Assembly: GCF_000211475.1 (NCBI RefSeq)
Contig: NC_015474.1
Location: 1,302,001-1,366,000 of the forward strand
Reading direction: 5' to 3'
Source: Pyrococcus sp. NA2
GTDB taxonomy: Archaea; Methanobacteriota_B; Thermococci; Thermococcales; Thermococcaceae
DNA: 64,000 bases
In this document: positions 41,802 through 49,449 of the stretch, one piece after another
Position numbering within the stretch: position 1 is the stretch's first letter
Layout of the letters: every line of letters begins with the position of its first letter
Notes under the pieces: generated by a model
Databases searched by the model: none
What the model saw: only the letters and a program-made list of their open reading frames with translations
Told to the model about the DNA's origin: nothing
Program-made: the position numbers and the translations under genes

Positions 41802-43193
41802 ATGGTTCAAATCATAGACACCACCTTTAGGGATGCTCATCAATCACTTCTTGCAACTAGGCTTAGAACTGAGGACATGTTGAAAATTGCAAGGGTCATG
41901 GATGAAATAGGGTTTTACTCCATGGAAGTTTGGGGCGGGGCAACGTTCGATGTGTGTATAAGGTACCTGGGTGAGGATCCCTGGGAACGACTTAGACTTC
42001 TAAGGGAAGAGATAAGAAGGACAAAACTTCAGATGTTACTCAGGGGAAAGAACCTCGTAGGATATAGGCATTATCCAGAGGATGTTGTGAGGAAATTCAT
42101 TGAAAAAGCATTTGAAAATGGAATAGATATCTTCAGAATATTTGATGCCCTTAACGATATTGAGAACATGGAGGTTGCCATACGCTCAGCTAAGGCAGTG
42201 GGAGCAGAAGTTCAGGGGGTCATAGTGTACACCACAGGTCCAATGTTCACCCTCGAGTATTACTTGAGCAAGGCGGAAGAGTTGATGAGTCGGGATGTTG
42301 ATGTGATAACTATAAAGGATATGGCTGGTTTGTTGGATCCCTATACTGCCTATGAACTTGTTAGAGAAATAAAAAGGGAATATGGAATTCCAGTGAACGT
42401 TCATACTCACTCAACAACGGGAATGGCAGTTGCAACTTATCTAAAGGCAGTTGAAGGTGGTGCAGACTTTATAGATACCTCAATAAGCCCTCTGGCTTTT
42501 GGCACCGCTCAGCCTGGAATACAGACGGTTCAATATGTTCTCAAGCTTAACTTAAAATCCGAGAAAATTAAGGAGGTCTCTGAATACTTAGAGAAATTGC
42601 TAGATGGAAAATATAATATCGACAAGAAGGTGATAGCCGTTAATCCCTACGTTCTAGAATATCAGGTTCCTGGAGGAATGCTTTCGAATTTAATAGCTCA
42701 ACTCAAGGAAATGAGAGCCCTTCACAGGTTAAAAGATGTTTTGAGAGAGATACCTAGAGTTAGGGAAGATCTAGGGTGGCCTCCGCTTGTAACCCCTATG
42801 AGCCAAATAGTTGGAACACAAGCATTGCTAAATGTTCTCTTTGGAAGGTACAAAAGATTGACGAGGGAAGTTAAGGCCTACATAAAAGGAAAGTATGGAA
42901 AACCTCCAGGGAGAATAAATCCAAAACTAGTTGAAATGGTGAGAGATTTTGAGGTTGATGATGACTCCTTGACATTTGAAGAAGCAAGAAGAAAACTAAT
43001 TGAGATGGGTTTCCTAAAGGAAGCCCAAAAGGACGAGAACGTTCTTACTTATGCCCTGTTTCCTCAGATTGCAAAAGAATTCTTTGAAGGAAAAGTTAGG
43101 GAGGATTCTAGACGGAAAGTGTTTAAGAAACTCAAATTATTGATAAATGGAGTGGAGTATGAGGTAGGTATCCTGAGCGATGATGTAGATTAG
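41802..43193 (+). CDS. Pyruvate/oxaloacetate carboxyltransferase (PycB/OadA-like), no biotin domain
   Basis: The 463-residue TIM-barrel protein has the HMGL-like carboxyltransferase signature IIDTTFRDAHQSLLATR, metal-binding VNVHTHSTTGMA and the PYC-OADA C-terminal conserved domain. It lacks the biotinyl AMKM domain, so a separate biotin carrier is required. In archaea such proteins are subunits of pyruvate carboxylase or of Na+-pumping decarboxylases; no partner gene is in this window. GGTGAT precedes ATG 41802. Its last codons overlap a C/D box RNA gene on the same strand. Confidence 0.85.
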   Translation: MVQIIDTTFRDAHQSLLATRLRTEDMLKIARVMDEIGFYSMEVWGGATFDVCIRYLGEDPWERLRLLREEIRRTKLQMLLRGKNLVGYRHYPEDVVRKFIEKAFENGIDIFRIFDALNDIENMEVAIRSAKAVGAEVQGVIVYTTGPMFTLEYYLSKAEELMSRDVDVITIKDMAGLLDPYTAYELVREIKREYGIPVNVHTHSTTGMAVATYLKAVEGGADFIDTSISPLAFGTAQPGIQTVQYVLKLNLKSEKIKEVSEYLEKLLDGKYNIDKKVIAVNPYVLEYQVPGGMLSNLIAQLKEMRALHRLKDVLREIPRVREDLGWPPLVTPMSQIVGTQALLNVLFGRYKRLTREVKAYIKGKYGKPPGRINPKLVEMVRDFEVDDDSLTFEEARRKLIEMGFLKEAQKDENVLTYALFPQIAKEFFEGKVREDSRRKVFKKLKLLINGVEYEVGILSDDVD

Positions 43194-43234
43194 CCCCGAC
43201 TGAGTTGTGATGAGGCTGGCCCATCGCTGAGCTG
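43174..43234 (+). ncRNA. C/D box sRNA overlapping the pycB-like stop codon, candidate
   Basis: The sequence has box C ATGATGT (43180-43186, last base off consensus), a 13-nt guide (43187-43199) and box D' CTGA (43200-43203). A GTT spacer is followed by a perfect box C' GTGATGA (43207-43213), a 13-nt guide (43214-43226) and box D CTGA (43227-43230). Flanking AGC (43176-43178) and GCT (43231-43233) can form the terminal stem. Predicted targets contain UCGGGGCUAAUCU (D' guide) and CGAUGGGCCAG (D guide). The 5' third lies within the last codons of the carboxyltransferase gene, which has precedent for archaeal guide RNAs. Confidence 0.75.
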
Positions 43235-43312: not shown

Positions 43313-44391
43313 TTACTCACCAAGAAGCCGTTTCCACAGCGGGACTACTTTCACGCTCATCTCACCTTCCCTAAGCCTCTTGTATGAGGTACTCAATTCC
43401 AGAGCGTCCCTTAACCACAAAGTCAACTTTTCCTCTTTCCTTCCAGTAATAAAGGGCATAGCCTCTCCTAACTAATTCTACAGTGACAGTATTCTCCATT
43501 CTCCTCCCAAAATCGGAGAAATTGGAGTTTGGGGATTCGATAAAGGCAGGATCAATAACATAGGCCTTTCTTGGAGACTCGAGAGTTTCTTTAAGCTTGT
43601 AGGAGAACCTCCTTGCCGTGACTATCAGGTAGGCCTCCTCAAGGTAGTCAATTCAGCGTGTGGACGCTTCCCACCTTGAAGAGTTTTTGAGCTAGTATAG
43701 GTGAATTCTCAGGGCAAAGTTTGAGATAAGATAGAGGGCCAACTCGTATAGAGTGTAGCGATGTTTTTTCCTCCTCACGATGTCCCTTAGGACTATGCTG
43801 TCGAAGAGCATTCTCCCATAGTCCCTCGCATCGTAGCCCTTAACAACGACCTCAGGGAAGCTGGAGGTATTCGGTAAGGTGGGAGAGGAGCTTTTCCTCT
43901 TTCATCGGAAGCTCGGGCTTTTCCTTAAAGTTTCCCCCCAGAAACTCTCTAAATGAGAAGGGGAACACTTTAACATCGAAATATCTCCCGGTAAGGTGGG
44001 TTGCTAGCTCACTGCCGAGAAGTCTGGAGTTAAACCCGTTATCACGACGTTGTAGCCCAACCGTTGGGCCTTGAAACTATGAGCTCCCACTTTGGGAGAT
44101 TCTGCACCTCATCGAGGAAAACCACCTTAAAGCCCCCATAGACCTCATGGAGAATCTTTAAGAGTTCATCGAAATCGGAAACTTCCGCTAGAACTTCGTC
44201 GTCGAAAGTTCGCATAGCCAAAATTTTCCTTAATGACTCTCACCGCGAGAAAGCTCTTTCCAGCTTTCCTTGGTCCACTGATGACCTTTATAAGGTCTGT
44301 TTTCATGCCTATTCTCGGCGTCTCTTCTAACCTACAGCCCTTTCCTCATTCTTTCAAGTTCGTACCTCTGGGAGAGCACCCTTTCTCTCAT
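43313..44391 (-). pseudogene. Decayed AAA ATPase (AAA_14/DUF4143 type)
   Basis: Reading the minus strand across several frames reconstructs a typical archaeal AAA ATPase. The start is MRERVLSQRYELERMRKGL, followed by the Walker A segment VISGPRKAGKSFLAVRV, Walker B FKVVFLDEVQNLPKWE, and YNVVITG. Then come SELATHLTGRYFDVKVFPFSF, RDYGRMLFDSIVLRDIVRRKK, YVIDPAFIESPNSNFSDFG, and the C-terminal nuclease-like GYALYYWKERGKVDFVVKG, ending VPLWKRLLGE and a stop at 43313-43315. At least four frameshifts or stops break it. These ATPases are frequent in mobile or toxin-like gene sets of Thermococcales. The gene is non-functional as it stands. Confidence 0.8.
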
Positions 44392-44456
44392 CCTACATAT
44401 CCACATAATGCATAATGTTTTAAGTGCATGCAACACTTACCTTTTTCTTTTGAAAG

Positions 44457-44476
44457 CCTCGCCCTTTAGGGTGGGG
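44457..44476 (+). mobile_element. Possible IS200/IS605-type right-end hairpin (relic)
   Basis: CCTCGCCC-TTTA-GGGTGGGG forms an 8-bp stem with two G:T wobbles and a TTTA loop, preceded by GAAAG. The form resembles the GC hairpin at the 3' end of archaeal TnpB genes and their guide RNA. No transposase reading frame remains next to it. It may instead be part of an unrelated RNA or terminator. Offered as a weak call. Confidence 0.3.
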
Positions 44477-44514
44477 ACAAACAACAGTCCAACAGTCTTT
44501 AAACCATTGAAATC

Positions 44515-44523
44515 CTTTTAAAC
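44515..44523 (+). promoter_or_regulatory. TATA-like box for the structured RNA
   Basis: CTTTTAAAC lies about 22-30 nt upstream of the first base of the GC-rich RNA (44539). This is the spacing expected for an archaeal TATA box, and it is preceded by purine-containing sequence suitable for a BRE. A second TTTAAACC box sits at about 44498-44505. Confidence 0.45.
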
Positions 44524-44538
44524 TTTGGAGCGTAATAA

Positions 44539-44763
44539 GGTCTTGGAGGGGCCACTCAAAAGAGGGGTTTCACGTTCCCACTCCGCCTTGGAGTGGTTGA
44601 CGCCGGTAGGCGTCCTCTCAAAAGATGGCCTCTAAGGCGATAACCCCGAGCCGGTAGGGGTAACGGGCTCAAGACCGGGCCCTCGGGCTGAACCGAAAGG
44701 GGTAATCCGAGTAGGTGATGGGCCCGTAAACCTTCCCGCCAATGGCGAGGGGGAGGTCAGATC
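44539..44763 (+). ncRNA. GC-rich structured RNA of ~225 nt, identity unknown
   Basis: This block is strikingly GC-rich in an AT-rich genome, the classic sign of a stable RNA in a hyperthermophile. Helices visible by eye: CACTCC/GGAGTG (44579-44595), GACGCC-GGTA-GGCGTC (44599-44614), and CGGGCCC/GGGCCCG (44676-44682 with 44720-44726) enclosing TCGG/CCGA and an ACC-GAAA-GGGG loop. CCTTCC/GGGAGG encloses CGCC-AAT-GGCG (44731-44756). A closing GGTCT/AGATC stem is at 44539-44543 with 44759-44763. A TATA box precedes it. It is not tRNA or rRNA, and I do not see the RNase P or SRP core motifs. It may match one of the Hgc RNAs reported from P. furiosus, or be new. Confidence 0.7.
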
Positions 44764-45045
44764 TATATCCAGCTCTTTAGATATTAGTTTTTCTCCCATC
44801 TTTTAAGCCCAACAAACTCGACCTTCCTTATTAGGTTCCTCAGAATTTCTTGTGCTCTCTTGCGAGGATTTTTTGGTTATTTATTCCAATGTTTTCTCTC
44901 TAGTTAGGATGTTTTTGAATTTCATTAATTAATTGTGCTTATGTTAAACAAACATGGCTATTGTACAAAAGTTCCAAAAAGTTTTTAAAACTTTAAATCT
45001 CTTATAAAATTTGTAAAATGTACAAGCAATAATGGTGAAATTATA
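44764..45045. other. Spacer between structured RNA and radical SAM gene
   Basis: About 280 nt, AT-rich. The first ~110 nt read on the minus strand like a short decayed coding tail (fragments such as RKVEFVGLKRWEKN), with no intact gene. The last ~80 nt hold the promoter of the radical SAM gene, listed separately. Confidence 0.4.
44978..45009 (+). promoter_or_regulatory. Promoter of radical SAM gene with perfect dyad upstream of TATA
   Basis: AAAGTTTT-T-AAAACTTT (44978-44994) is a perfect 17-nt palindrome. It lies 6 nt upstream of the TATA box CTTATAAAA (45001-45009), which is placed to start transcription near 45030. GGTGA at 45034-45038 then precedes ATG 45046. TTGTACAA-like motifs flank the dyad at ~44961-44968 and ~45019-45025. 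The dyad is a candidate binding site for a regulator of the peptide locus. Confidence 0.5.
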
Positions 45046-46497
45046 ATGAATGTTATTAAATTAAAAGATATTACAGCCATAAAAACTGAAATAGACGGCG
45101 TTGAAAAGTTCTTTGTCCTTCATGAAACCTCAGGGTATTTCATCGAGATTGAAAAGGAAACTTATGAAGGCTTAGAAAAACTTAGCAAAGGAGAGAAAGA
45201 TAAGCTCACTAAAGAAGAAAAAACTAAATTGACCGAGCTTTTCATATATACAGCCCAACTACCACAACTCAAAATAAACGAGGATGTACAAGAGCCTATA
45301 TACTTTCTCGGAGGTAGCATTAACGTCTCTCAAGCATGTAACTTCTCATGCGTCTATTGTTATGGAAATAAAGGGCTTTACGGGAACGAAAAGCCGAAAC
45401 TTATGAACTTAGAAACTGCAAAGAAAAGCATTGATTTGTTACTTCAAAAAAGCAGTAATATTACAATAATAACGTTTTTTGGTGGAGAGCCTTTGTTAAA
45501 CTTTAAAGTGATAAAAGAAGCCGTCGAATACGCCAAAAAGAGAGCTAACGAGCTTAATAAAAAAGTATCCTTTACAATAACCACAAAAGGTTATCTATTA
45601 ACTCCAGAAATTGCCGATTTTCTCTTAGAAAACAACTTTGACATAAACATAAGCCTCGATGGATATAGAGAACTACACAACAAAAACAGACTCTTAGCAG
45701 ACGGTAGCCCAACATATAACGTTGTAGCAAACAACATTAAATACCTTCTAAAAAGGGCTAAAGAGCTTGGTAGATTTAAGAATATTTCCATAAAAGCAAC
45801 TCTCATGCCCGACCAAGTTAAAGAAGCTTACAAAGTCTATAAACACATAAAAGAAGAGTTTAACCCACCAATAATAGCAATAGGCTTTGCTACACTCTCC
45901 AATGGTGCAATGACCACAAAACATTTGGACATTTACCTAAAAGAACTCGAAAAAATAGCCATTGATGAATTAGAAACCTTTGGAGAGCTTAACAGAGTGC
46001 TCTTTGGAGATTTCATACTACAATTCAGAGATATTTACGGTGGTAGGATTAAAGCCCAACATTGCGGTGCTGGGTTCGGTAGCATAGCAATAGACGTTGA
46101 TGGGAACGTTTACCCATGCCAAAGATTTGTATCCTTCAAAGATTTCAAACTTAGTGATATAAACTCATTCACCCTAAAAGACCTCTCAAAATTTGAAGGA
46201 CAAAAATATACACCATTTAACCATGAACCATGCAAATCATGTTGGCTTAAGTTCTATTGTCGTAACTTTTGCTACTATGACAACATGATTTACACAGGCA
46301 AAATCATAATTCCATCGAATTTATCATGCTATTATGCAAAAGAAAAATTCAAAATCGGGCTTTGGCTTTATTCAAGACTCTACGACGAATACGAAGAAAA
46401 ATTTGAAGAATACCTCGAAAAGAGCATGAACATGCCCAGAACAACGAGTAATCAGGTTACTTACCTACCACGCAACACGGTTAATGTAAAAACCTAA
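45046..46497 (+). CDS. Radical SAM/SPASM peptide maturase (putative RiPP enzyme)
   Basis: The 483-residue enzyme has an N-terminal ~95-residue region resembling the PqqD-like recognition domain of peptide maturases. The radical SAM core follows, with CNFSCVYC (CxxxCxxC, near residue 100), FFGGEPLLNF and a TIM-barrel. The C-terminal SPASM domain matches the seven-Cys rule exactly: CX12GX4C (CGAG...YPC), then CX2CX5CX3C (CKSCWLKFYCRNFC), then a final Cys in NLSCYYAK. Such enzymes form thioether or C-C crosslinks in ribosomal peptides. Two short Cys-containing peptide genes and an MFS exporter follow directly. Codon use is A-rich compared with neighbours, suggesting acquisition. Confidence 0.92.
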   Translation: MNVIKLKDITAIKTEIDGVEKFFVLHETSGYFIEIEKETYEGLEKLSKGEKDKLTKEEKTKLTELFIYTAQLPQLKINEDVQEPIYFLGGSINVSQACNFSCVYCYGNKGLYGNEKPKLMNLETAKKSIDLLLQKSSNITIITFFGGEPLLNFKVIKEAVEYAKKRANELNKKVSFTITTKGYLLTPEIADFLLENNFDINISLDGYRELHNKNRLLADGSPTYNVVANNIKYLLKRAKELGRFKNISIKATLMPDQVKEAYKVYKHIKEEFNPPIIAIGFATLSNGAMTTKHLDIYLKELEKIAIDELETFGELNRVLFGDFILQFRDIYGGRIKAQHCGAGFGSIAIDVDGNVYPCQRFVSFKDFKLSDINSFTLKDLSKFEGQKYTPFNHEPCKSCWLKFYCRNFCYYDNMIYTGKIIIPSNLSCYYAKEKFKIGLWLYSRLYDEYEEKFEEYLEKSMNMPRTTSNQVTYLPRNTVNVKT

Positions 46498-46763: not shown

Positions 46764-46803
46764 AACCAAAAACACGATGTAGCAAATAGAAAGATTGTTC
46801 AAA

Positions 46804-46823
46804 CTTTTTCCTTTTTATTTTTT
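46804..46823 (+). terminator. T-rich tract between precursor peptides and exporter
   Basis: A nearly continuous run of T (interrupted by CC and A) lies 41 nt after the stop of peptide 2 and before the exporter's Shine-Dalgarno. It has the form of an archaeal terminator. Partial termination here would give more precursor and maturase than exporter transcript. Confidence 0.45.
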
Positions 46824-46848
46824 AATAAAACCAATAGGAGGCTTTCAA

Positions 46849-48066
46849 ATGGATTTAATCAAAAGATACATGGTGCTTTACGCTCTAATGAACACAAGCT
46901 TTGTAAGTGGGATTATAACTATTTACTATCTTGCAAAAGGCTTAACATACGCTCAAATAGGAATAGCAACCGCAATATCAACCATTGGCTTCTTCCTATT
47001 CGAAGTTCCAACAGGAGTAATCGGAGACAAAATAAGCCGAAAGAAAAGCGTCCTAATCGGCTTAACACTCTTCCCAATCGGCACAATAATCCTAATATTC
47101 CTAAAAAACTTCCCAATGCTAATAGCCTACGCTATAATAACCTCCCTCAGCCTAACATTCATCAGCGGAAGCTTAGAAGCATGGCTATTTGACAACCTCA
47201 AACATCTCGGCAAGGAAAAAGAATACAGAAAACTCATGAAAAGCATAAAAACCATAACTCTACCATTATCAGCAACAACAATCGTAATCGGAAGCTTTTT
47301 AGCCCAAAAATATGGCTTCAAACTACCACTAACCCTATCATTAGCACTCGAAATAACAATGCTCATAGTAGCCCTAAGCATCCCCGAATATGAGTTTAAA
47401 AAGCCTAAGGTTGCCTATCACATTCACGTTTTACACTCAATCAAAGAAATCACAAAACCAAACATACTCTGGCTAATTATTGTAGCAATAATCGTAACCA
47501 TGTCAATCAACCAATTCCGACAATACTTTGAACCTTACTTGGGCAACATCTTAGCTCAGAGCCTCAAAACCACCATAATGGGAACGTTGGGTATTCTCGG
47601 ACTAATCGAGGCAATAGTAAAAGTCATCCCTAAAATAATTGGCGTAAGGCTTAAAGAAAAATGGAGTGTCTTCGCTTACTCAATAGCACCCGTGAGCATT
47701 CCAATGCTCACGGCATTATCAGTAATCCACCAAAATCCTATCTTCATCGTAATACTTGGAGTTATTGCAACGATAATCAACACGGCTTATGCCTTCAACT
47801 TTGGCATTGAATTGCAAGTAAGAATCCCCAGCGAAAAAAGAGCAACCATAATATCTCTTTATTCCATGATTTCAGCCCTGATAATGGCAATCTTCTACGG
47901 AATCTATGGTCTTATCGTTGATAAACTTGGCTTAGCAGAGGCAAGATTAGTATTTGCACTAACCCTCTTTGGCATTGGTTTAGCATTCAAAGGAGCACAA
48001 ACAATTGGAATCCTGAAAGAACCATTAGAACTAAAACACCTACAACTTCTTTCAAAGGAGCAATAG
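46849..48066 (+). CDS. MFS transporter, putative peptide exporter
   Basis: The 405-residue protein has twelve predicted membrane spans. Its MFS signature between TM2 and TM3 reads FEVPTGVIGDKISRKKSVLIG (the GxxxDxxxRKK loop), typical of drug-efflux type carriers. The frame extends to TTG 46795, but AGGAGG (46836-46841) precedes ATG 46849, which gives the MDLIKRYMVLYAL start. Its place directly after a peptide maturase and two precursors suggests export of, or resistance to, the modified peptide. Like the maturase gene it favours C/A-ending codons and contains CGA/CGC-type Arg codons rare in the neighbours. Confidence 0.85.
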   Translation: MDLIKRYMVLYALMNTSFVSGIITIYYLAKGLTYAQIGIATAISTIGFFLFEVPTGVIGDKISRKKSVLIGLTLFPIGTIILIFLKNFPMLIAYAIITSLSLTFISGSLEAWLFDNLKHLGKEKEYRKLMKSIKTITLPLSATTIVIGSFLAQKYGFKLPLTLSLALEITMLIVALSIPEYEFKKPKVAYHIHVLHSIKEITKPNILWLIIVAIIVTMSINQFRQYFEPYLGNILAQSLKTTIMGTLGILGLIEAIVKVIPKIIGVRLKEKWSVFAYSIAPVSIPMLTALSVIHQNPIFIVILGVIATIINTAYAFNFGIELQVRIPSEKRATIISLYSMISALIMAIFYGIYGLIVDKLGLAEARLVFALTLFGIGLAFKGAQTIGILKEPLELKHLQLLSKEQ

Positions 48067-48318: not shown

Positions 48319-49449
48319 ATGGATAACTTGGACATTAAATTTATCGTCTTCCTTACCATCTTTATTTTAATCGGGGCATATATTATTGGCGTTCCAGACA
48401 TGTTTTTCTCAAAGCATCAGTCAAATCCTCCACATCCATACGTGTATTCAAAGGAGGACATTGAAGAAATGCAGAAGCATTATTCCCTAGCAAATTTCAG
48501 CGGCCTCACTACGGACGCTTCATTGATAAACAAAACACGCTCACTGTTCATGGAACTTAACAGCACTAGAAAATGTAGCATTTTAATAAGAGACATGGAA
48601 AGGGATTTCTATTCTGCAAGAATCTACACGTTCGTGCCAACGTTTGCATACTTGGCTGCAGATAAGATAGAGTGCAACATGAACCAATATAAAGGAAACG
48701 TTAGCTTAGCCCTAAGCGAGGTAGAAAAGCTCCTAAGTGAAATAAGGGAGATCGAAAAGACAAAAGGCCAATCTCCGTGGTTAGCCGTTGCAGAACTCTA
48801 CCTAGAATGGTCTCAAAACCCAAACATGACTTCTACACGGGTCATCTTTACCCTTGAGTATCTCATACCATTCCTTAAGGAGCACATTGAAGGAGAATAC
48901 GAGAGAATTAATTTTGAGCTGTCCAATATTACGAGAACTAGGATGAAAGTTGAAGAATTAGAAAGAGCCCTAAAAGAGGACAAAACTCAGAGAGCTAACT
49001 TAATAGTCTTTGCCTCAGCTTGGCTGAACATGTCGGAGGAAGCATATAAGAAAGGTGAGAAATCACTTGCCCTATGGTATTATTCGGTTGCTCTCGCGTA
49101 CCTTAATTTAACCGAAACGGAGTGGGCCAAGGCTCCCCATCCGTACTTTGTTGGGGGAGGGCTTCAGAAAGAAAAGGACGTGCCCTACAATATTACAGGA
49201 ATCAGAAAAGAAGTTTACGAAAGGGCATTGGCCTTTGCTAGGAAGAAGGGAGAAGGGCCTTATGCAGAGCTCCTATCCAATTACGTTCTATTAGATCTTT
49301 GGGCATTAGATTCATCCACACTTCCAAAGCTTTCAGATCCAAATAATCCCCTCCTGAAGTATTACCCCTCTGCCACGTATGAAGAATATTTACGCCTTTT
49401 AGGCATGGTGGTTGCCTTGGAAATCTTTGCTTCTCATTTCTCCTCTTAG
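48319..49449 (+). CDS. Secreted/membrane-anchored helical protein of unknown function
   Basis: The 376-residue protein has one N-terminal membrane segment (FIVFLTIFILIGAYIIGVPDMFF). A long, mostly alpha-helical exterior follows, with TPR-like helix pairs (FASAWLNMSEEAYKKGEKSLALWYYSVALAYLNLTETEW) and many N-x-S/T sequons. I do not recognise the family. It is flanked by the RiPP-like locus (252 nt upstream) and convergent hypF. A TATA-like AATTTTTAAATAG at ~48270-48282 serves it separately. Codon use returns to the Pyrococcus norm. Confidence 0.65.
   Translation: MDNLDIKFIVFLTIFILIGAYIIGVPDMFFSKHQSNPPHPYVYSKEDIEEMQKHYSLANFSGLTTDASLINKTRSLFMELNSTRKCSILIRDMERDFYSARIYTFVPTFAYLAADKIECNMNQYKGNVSLALSEVEKLLSEIREIEKTKGQSPWLAVAELYLEWSQNPNMTSTRVIFTLEYLIPFLKEHIEGEYERINFELSNITRTRMKVEELERALKEDKTQRANLIVFASAWLNMSEEAYKKGEKSLALWYYSVALAYLNLTETEWAKAPHPYFVGGGLQKEKDVPYNITGIRKEVYERALAFARKKGEGPYAELLSNYVLLDLWALDSSTLPKLSDPNNPLLKYYPSATYEEYLRLLGMVVALEIFASHFSS

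Follow-up and report, generated by a model that had tools for sequence, protein, structure and literature searches.

An HgcC-related omega-RNA predicted within a non-autonomous IS200/IS605-type element of Pyrococcus sp. NA2

TnpB is an RNA-guided nuclease and an ancestor of CRISPR-Cas12. HgcC (Rfam RF00062) is a long-known archaeal RNA family that is listed without a function. The omega-RNA (reRNA) of ISDra2 is made up of the 3′ end of tnpB, the right end of the element and ∼16 nt of flanking DNA (PMC8612924), and the sotRNAs (Rfam RF02656/RF02657) are omega-RNAs of halophiles (PMC12558985). Palindrome-associated transposable elements (PATEs), which were described in Haloquadratum, are short and transposase-free (PMC3119063). 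Five HgcC RNAs were detected by dRNA-seq in T. kodakarensis, three of them with a start within a transposase gene and two with no association with such genes (PMC4247193).

The locus described here (L001) lies in a window of 64 000 nucleotides from Pyrococcus sp. NA2, in which a first-pass annotation had proposed a gene for an unidentified structured RNA. The RNA gene with its promoter was borne out; its identity can now be predicted, as an omega-RNA related to HgcC. It resembles the ISDra2 omega-RNA (PMC8612924) in its position at the tnpB 3′ end and right end, its structured scaffold, the variable 3′ flank at the guide position and the target motif to the left of the element. Unlike ISDra2, the window element has no tnpB; it brings its own promoter, its RNA has a further domain at the 5′ end, and its target motif is TTAC instead of TTGAT. 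With the PATEs (PMC3119063) it shares near-terminal IS605-type palindromes and the absence of target duplication, but at its core stands a conserved RNA gene with a promoter. The nearest archaeal parallel is provided by the sotRNAs, which likewise overlap the tnpB 3′ end; these reside inside halophile tnpB genes, however, and match the window region only at chance level in Rfam. HgcC, one of the Hgc families that had been named for checking, proved to be a relative: its 3′ part and its right end GGAGGTCAG are common to the window RNA, and many of its matches overlap a tnpB end while others are TnpB-less. No Rfam family reached its gathering score over the RNA; the best, HgcC, gave 14.9 bits where 50 are required, such that the window RNA is a relative through its 3′ part rather than a member, and most HgcC loci above the threshold represent a shorter element type than the window element.

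Element architecture and RNA structure

Comparison of copies showed that the repeat unit begins ∼100 bp upstream of the RNA (44441; about 44440) and ends at 44760, replacing the 44539–44763 unit of the earlier annotation. The features are summarized in Table 1. TnpB similarity is absent at the window locus. The left-end motif also occurs solo elsewhere in the home genome. The TATA box that had been noted at the right distance is real and conserved among copies, and its position sets the predicted transcript start near 44539, as proposed; the predicted transcript extends from there to the right end, GGTCAG.

Table 1. Features of the element and its predicted RNA (window coordinates)
Feature	Position	Strand	Remarks
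Target tetranucleotide TTAC, predicted transposon-associated motif (TAM)	44437–44440	+	Left of element
Non-autonomous IS200/IS605-type element	44441–44760	+	320 bp, without tnpA/tnpB; ends set by comparison of copies
IS605-type left end, hairpin CTCGCCC-TTTA-GGGTGGG	44441–44477	+	Also 5′ of the ORFs in complete TnpB elements
BRE/TATA promoter element GAAATCCTTTTAAAC	44509–44523	+	Conserved in an alignment of 46 TnpB-less copies
RNA 5′ domain	44539–44639	+	In TnpB-less copies only; from alignment and covariation; shortened in the window copy
Predicted omega-RNA (reRNA) core	44640–44760	+	In complete elements, homology falls on the tnpB 3′ end and right end
Right end GAGGTCAG	44753–44760	+	Preceded in most copies by a terminal hairpin (∼45 nt), deleted here
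Predicted guide, first 16 nt of the flank (ATCTATATCCAGCTCT)	44761–44776	+	By analogy with the ISDra2 reRNA (PMC8612924); flanks vary among copies

The GC content over 44500–44800 is 55–57%, compared with roughly 24–46% on either side, in agreement with the unusual block first described. The plus strand folds at −104.3 kcal/mol versus −92.3 ± 4.8 kcal/mol for shuffled sequences (z = −2.5), with none of the 200 shuffles as good. An RNA on the minus strand was considered and rejected, since that strand folds more weakly. Structure is also backed by the covariance check that had been recommended. The consensus structure of 34 TnpB-less copies contains 37 pairs, which are paired in 97.3% of cells. 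Changes on both sides affect 14 pairs and 82 cells (24 ± 4 cells in shuffles, with 0/500 as high), counts that are inflated by kinship among the copies; when the partners are slid, a control that keeps the kinship, they drop to 3–7 pairs and the covariation signal is gone.

Two details of the initial description did not survive this comparison. The 5′/3′ closing stem is indeed present in the predicted fold, which pairs 44538–44543 with 44759–44764, but of the six bases on its 3′ side four belong to unique flanking sequence rather than to the element, and the 34-copy consensus retains just a two-pair contact elsewhere. The recurrence of CCGGTAGG is a coincidence: one occurrence belongs to the hairpin GACGCC-GGTA-GGCGTC, which is part of the RNA 5′ domain, and the other arose because the apical hairpin of another stem was deleted in the window copy, where other copies read CCGCTTTGCGGTAGGGG.

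Copies, target sites and the relationship to TnpB and HgcC

A DNA search of the home genome and 60 relatives detected matches to the window repeat in 25 of the 61 genomes, all from one archaeal family. A single genome has at most 16 matches (the number in both G021 and G027), and one copy may yield more than one match. The locus is not the lone orphan gene that it had seemed, as another full-length copy with 80% identity occurs in the home genome, along with several partial copies. Flanking sequences are unrelated from copy to copy; the left-end motif takes the form CTTTTTTCTTTTGAAAGCCTCGCCCTTTAGGGCGGGGA, and the right end reads GGCGGGGAGGAGGTCAG. The window copy and ∼45 others make up a TnpB-less class, with ends ∼320–424 bp apart and no tnpB between them. 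The BRE/TATA block and the ∼100-nt 5′ domain are common to this class; no convincing match to the 5′ domain was found in complete elements, and its derivation from tnpB coding sequence was rejected for that reason. In the sibling copy (L026; home genome C1, ∼1814.2–1814.5 kb) a stretch that codes for NGDLYEY in one frame precedes the right end; sequence beyond that end resembles it closely and may reflect local copying.

Of the 46 TnpB-less copies, 34 have TTAC no more than 22 nt from the left-end motif, compared with 5.7% of background windows. For a sister copy (L075), the flanks joined at TTAC|AAGG match another genome, G008, at 260 of 260 positions without gaps. This empty site keeps one TTAC and shows no target duplication, which indicates insertion after TTAC without duplication of the target. 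Insertion of this kind is the behaviour of IS200/IS605 elements. The second home-genome copy interrupts an ORF that reads through when the flanks are joined at TTAC. Empty sites for the window copy and for copy L027 were looked for and not found. The features that define a non-autonomous IS200/IS605 element (PATE) were observed here: subterminal palindromes common to autonomous elements, in the form of the left-end motif and the right end; a fixed short target without duplication, as seen in the TTAC enrichment and the L075 empty site; and a length, 320 bp, that is too short for a transposase gene, with none inside.

The TnpB domain (PF07282) is found in many of the relatives and the Y1 transposase (PF01797) in a few. 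The left end of the window repeat is found 5′ of a tnpA or tnpB ORF in complete elements, and both the left and the right ends are common to TnpB-less and complete elements. Nucleotides 44650–44752 of the window RNA align to the last ∼100 nt of the tnpB ORF or, where this ORF is shorter, just 3′ of it; in either case the right end comes next. One complete element (L120 of G004, with a TnpB of 436 amino acids), for example, has its left end at 663, the ORF at 923–2233, the core at 2126–2229 and the right end at 2274. A joint alignment of 17 TnpB-less and 17 tnpB-linked copies has identical landmarks throughout and three shared helices, in which six of 16 pairs are changed on both sides. Homology to the RNA at the tnpB 3′ end and right end and a conserved secondary structure, which characterize omega-RNAs, were both found. 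The placement of the RNA at the tnpB 3′ end and right end matches that of the ISDra2 reRNA (PMC8612924), and the window RNA is, as judged from these comparisons, a putative omega-RNA (reRNA) related to HgcC and carried by a non-autonomous IS200/IS605 element. A TnpB-less, promoter-bearing element with an extended guide RNA in many copies across an archaeal family is unusual; no earlier reports of TnpB-less omega-RNA elements were found among open-licence papers, a description elsewhere being possible, and a literature search for an omega-RNA with TnpB in Thermococcus returned nothing.

HgcC itself appears to consist of TnpB omega-RNAs, as the RF00062 matches in the relatives often lie right at tnpB 3′ ends. 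In ten of 25 examined HgcC loci, tnpB homology on the same strand ends 32–88 nt before the right end. On that strand the remaining loci lack tnpB; several are short elements of ∼160–205 bp. Five TnpB-less HgcC elements of this size (L140, L141, L161, L162 and L163) have an IS605-like left-end hairpin and are a second, smaller type of non-autonomous element. Limited literature searches found no paper that links HgcC to TnpB, although such a link may have been made before.

Proposed mechanism, alternatives and genomic context

We consider the whole to be best explained, with a probability of roughly 85%, by a PATE-like derivative of an IS200/IS605 element whose sole product is an omega-RNA and which would operate as follows. 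A Y1 transposase acting in trans would move the element as single-stranded DNA. RNA from the element's own promoter would run past the right end into ∼16 nt of flank, which would serve as the guide, as in ISDra2 (PMC8612924). TnpB from an autonomous relative may load this RNA in trans and, by the same analogy, cut TTAC plus guide, a sequence that is present only after the element has departed; repair after the cut would restore the element. RNA-guided cleavage, like the flank guide, the loading in trans and the repair, is inferred from ISDra2. A bolder proposal, to which we give about an even chance, is that the TnpB-less copies, equipped with a promoter and an extra RNA domain, constitute an independent family of guide-RNA transposons, which employ TnpB in trans for retention, and that the orphan HgcC RNAs are of the same kind.

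The window copy is probably a decaying relic, possibly still transcribed. Missing from it are the terminal right-end hairpin (∼45 nt), the apex of one stem and some of the 5′ domain. In the home genome the cognate tnpB (C1, ∼955.6–957.1 kb) is split between two reading frames by a frameshift near residue 95, where a sequencing error is possible, and the only Y1 transposase match has two stops. This loss of the right-end hairpin, together with the state of the two genes, points to decay, and the frameshift and the stops make operation of the full mechanism in the home strain unlikely at present. Two long open TnpB frames of the home genome (at 525.6 and 447.8 kb) share only 25–36% identity with the matching group or with each other's relatives. 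These distant but intact frames (L129, C1 ∼524–526 kb, 437 amino acids; L166, ∼446–448 kb, 434 amino acids) are each preceded by an ORF of ∼200 amino acids that resembles, as judged by eye, an IS607-type serine recombinase.

The home-genome sibling copy is also shortened and, with tnpB and the Y1 transposase broken as described, one might regard the entire class as deletion derivatives of TnpB elements that have no function in any copy and whose structure is inherited from the tnpB-linked RNA. We think this unlikely: the compensatory changes across the TnpB-less copies include a 5′-domain hairpin that is missing from complete elements, the promoter is conserved across the same copies, and these patterns argue for family-wide selection. 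The extra 5′ domain, missing from tnpB-linked RNAs, and the abundance of TnpB-less RNAs in some genomes, such as the two with 16 matches each, would also suit decoys or regulators; by titrating TnpB or the transposase these would shield the host or the element, with no guidance of cleavage. Such a role seems improbable, as nearly all copies are conserved right up to the GGTCAG that adjoins the guide position, which guidance would require and a decoy would have no clear need of. That the RNA is a free-standing chromosomal sRNA gene unrelated to transposons, with a host function such as regulation of the radical-SAM/RiPP-like locus or guidance of modification, would fit its own promoter, its strong conserved structure and a radical SAM/SPASM gene that begins ∼280 bp downstream. 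This reading is hardly credible given the dispersed copies with unrelated flanks, IS605-type ends and TTAC target, and it is already contradicted by the perfect empty site and by the homology to, and overlap with, the tnpB 3′ end. The connection to the RiPP-like locus suggested by the first-pass annotation is one of proximity only.

Under the preferred reading, the origin of a structured RNA gene would be settled and its function become testable; HgcC, which Rfam lists without a function, is indicated to consist of RNA guides for TnpB. With as many as 16 loci in a genome, a single nuclease could serve many mobile elements. Such sharing of guides between selfish elements could be tested in culturable hyperthermophiles, and thermostable pairs of TnpB and omega-RNA are of practical use as well.

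The RiPP-like locus to the right of the element comprises the radical SAM/SPASM protein (45046–46497, plus strand) and an MFS transporter (46795–48066, plus strand); the protein encoded at 48319–49449 in this locus has no Pfam match. Just to the left of the element, broken ORF pieces on the minus strand (43313–44306), one with a Walker-A-like GPRKAGKS, look by eye like a decayed archaeal ATPase gene. Further to the left, a C/D box sRNA at 43176–43233 on the plus strand (Rfam snoPyro_CD, RF00095; 53.5 bits), the only hit in the window at a curated threshold, overlaps the last bases of the ORF at 41802–43193.
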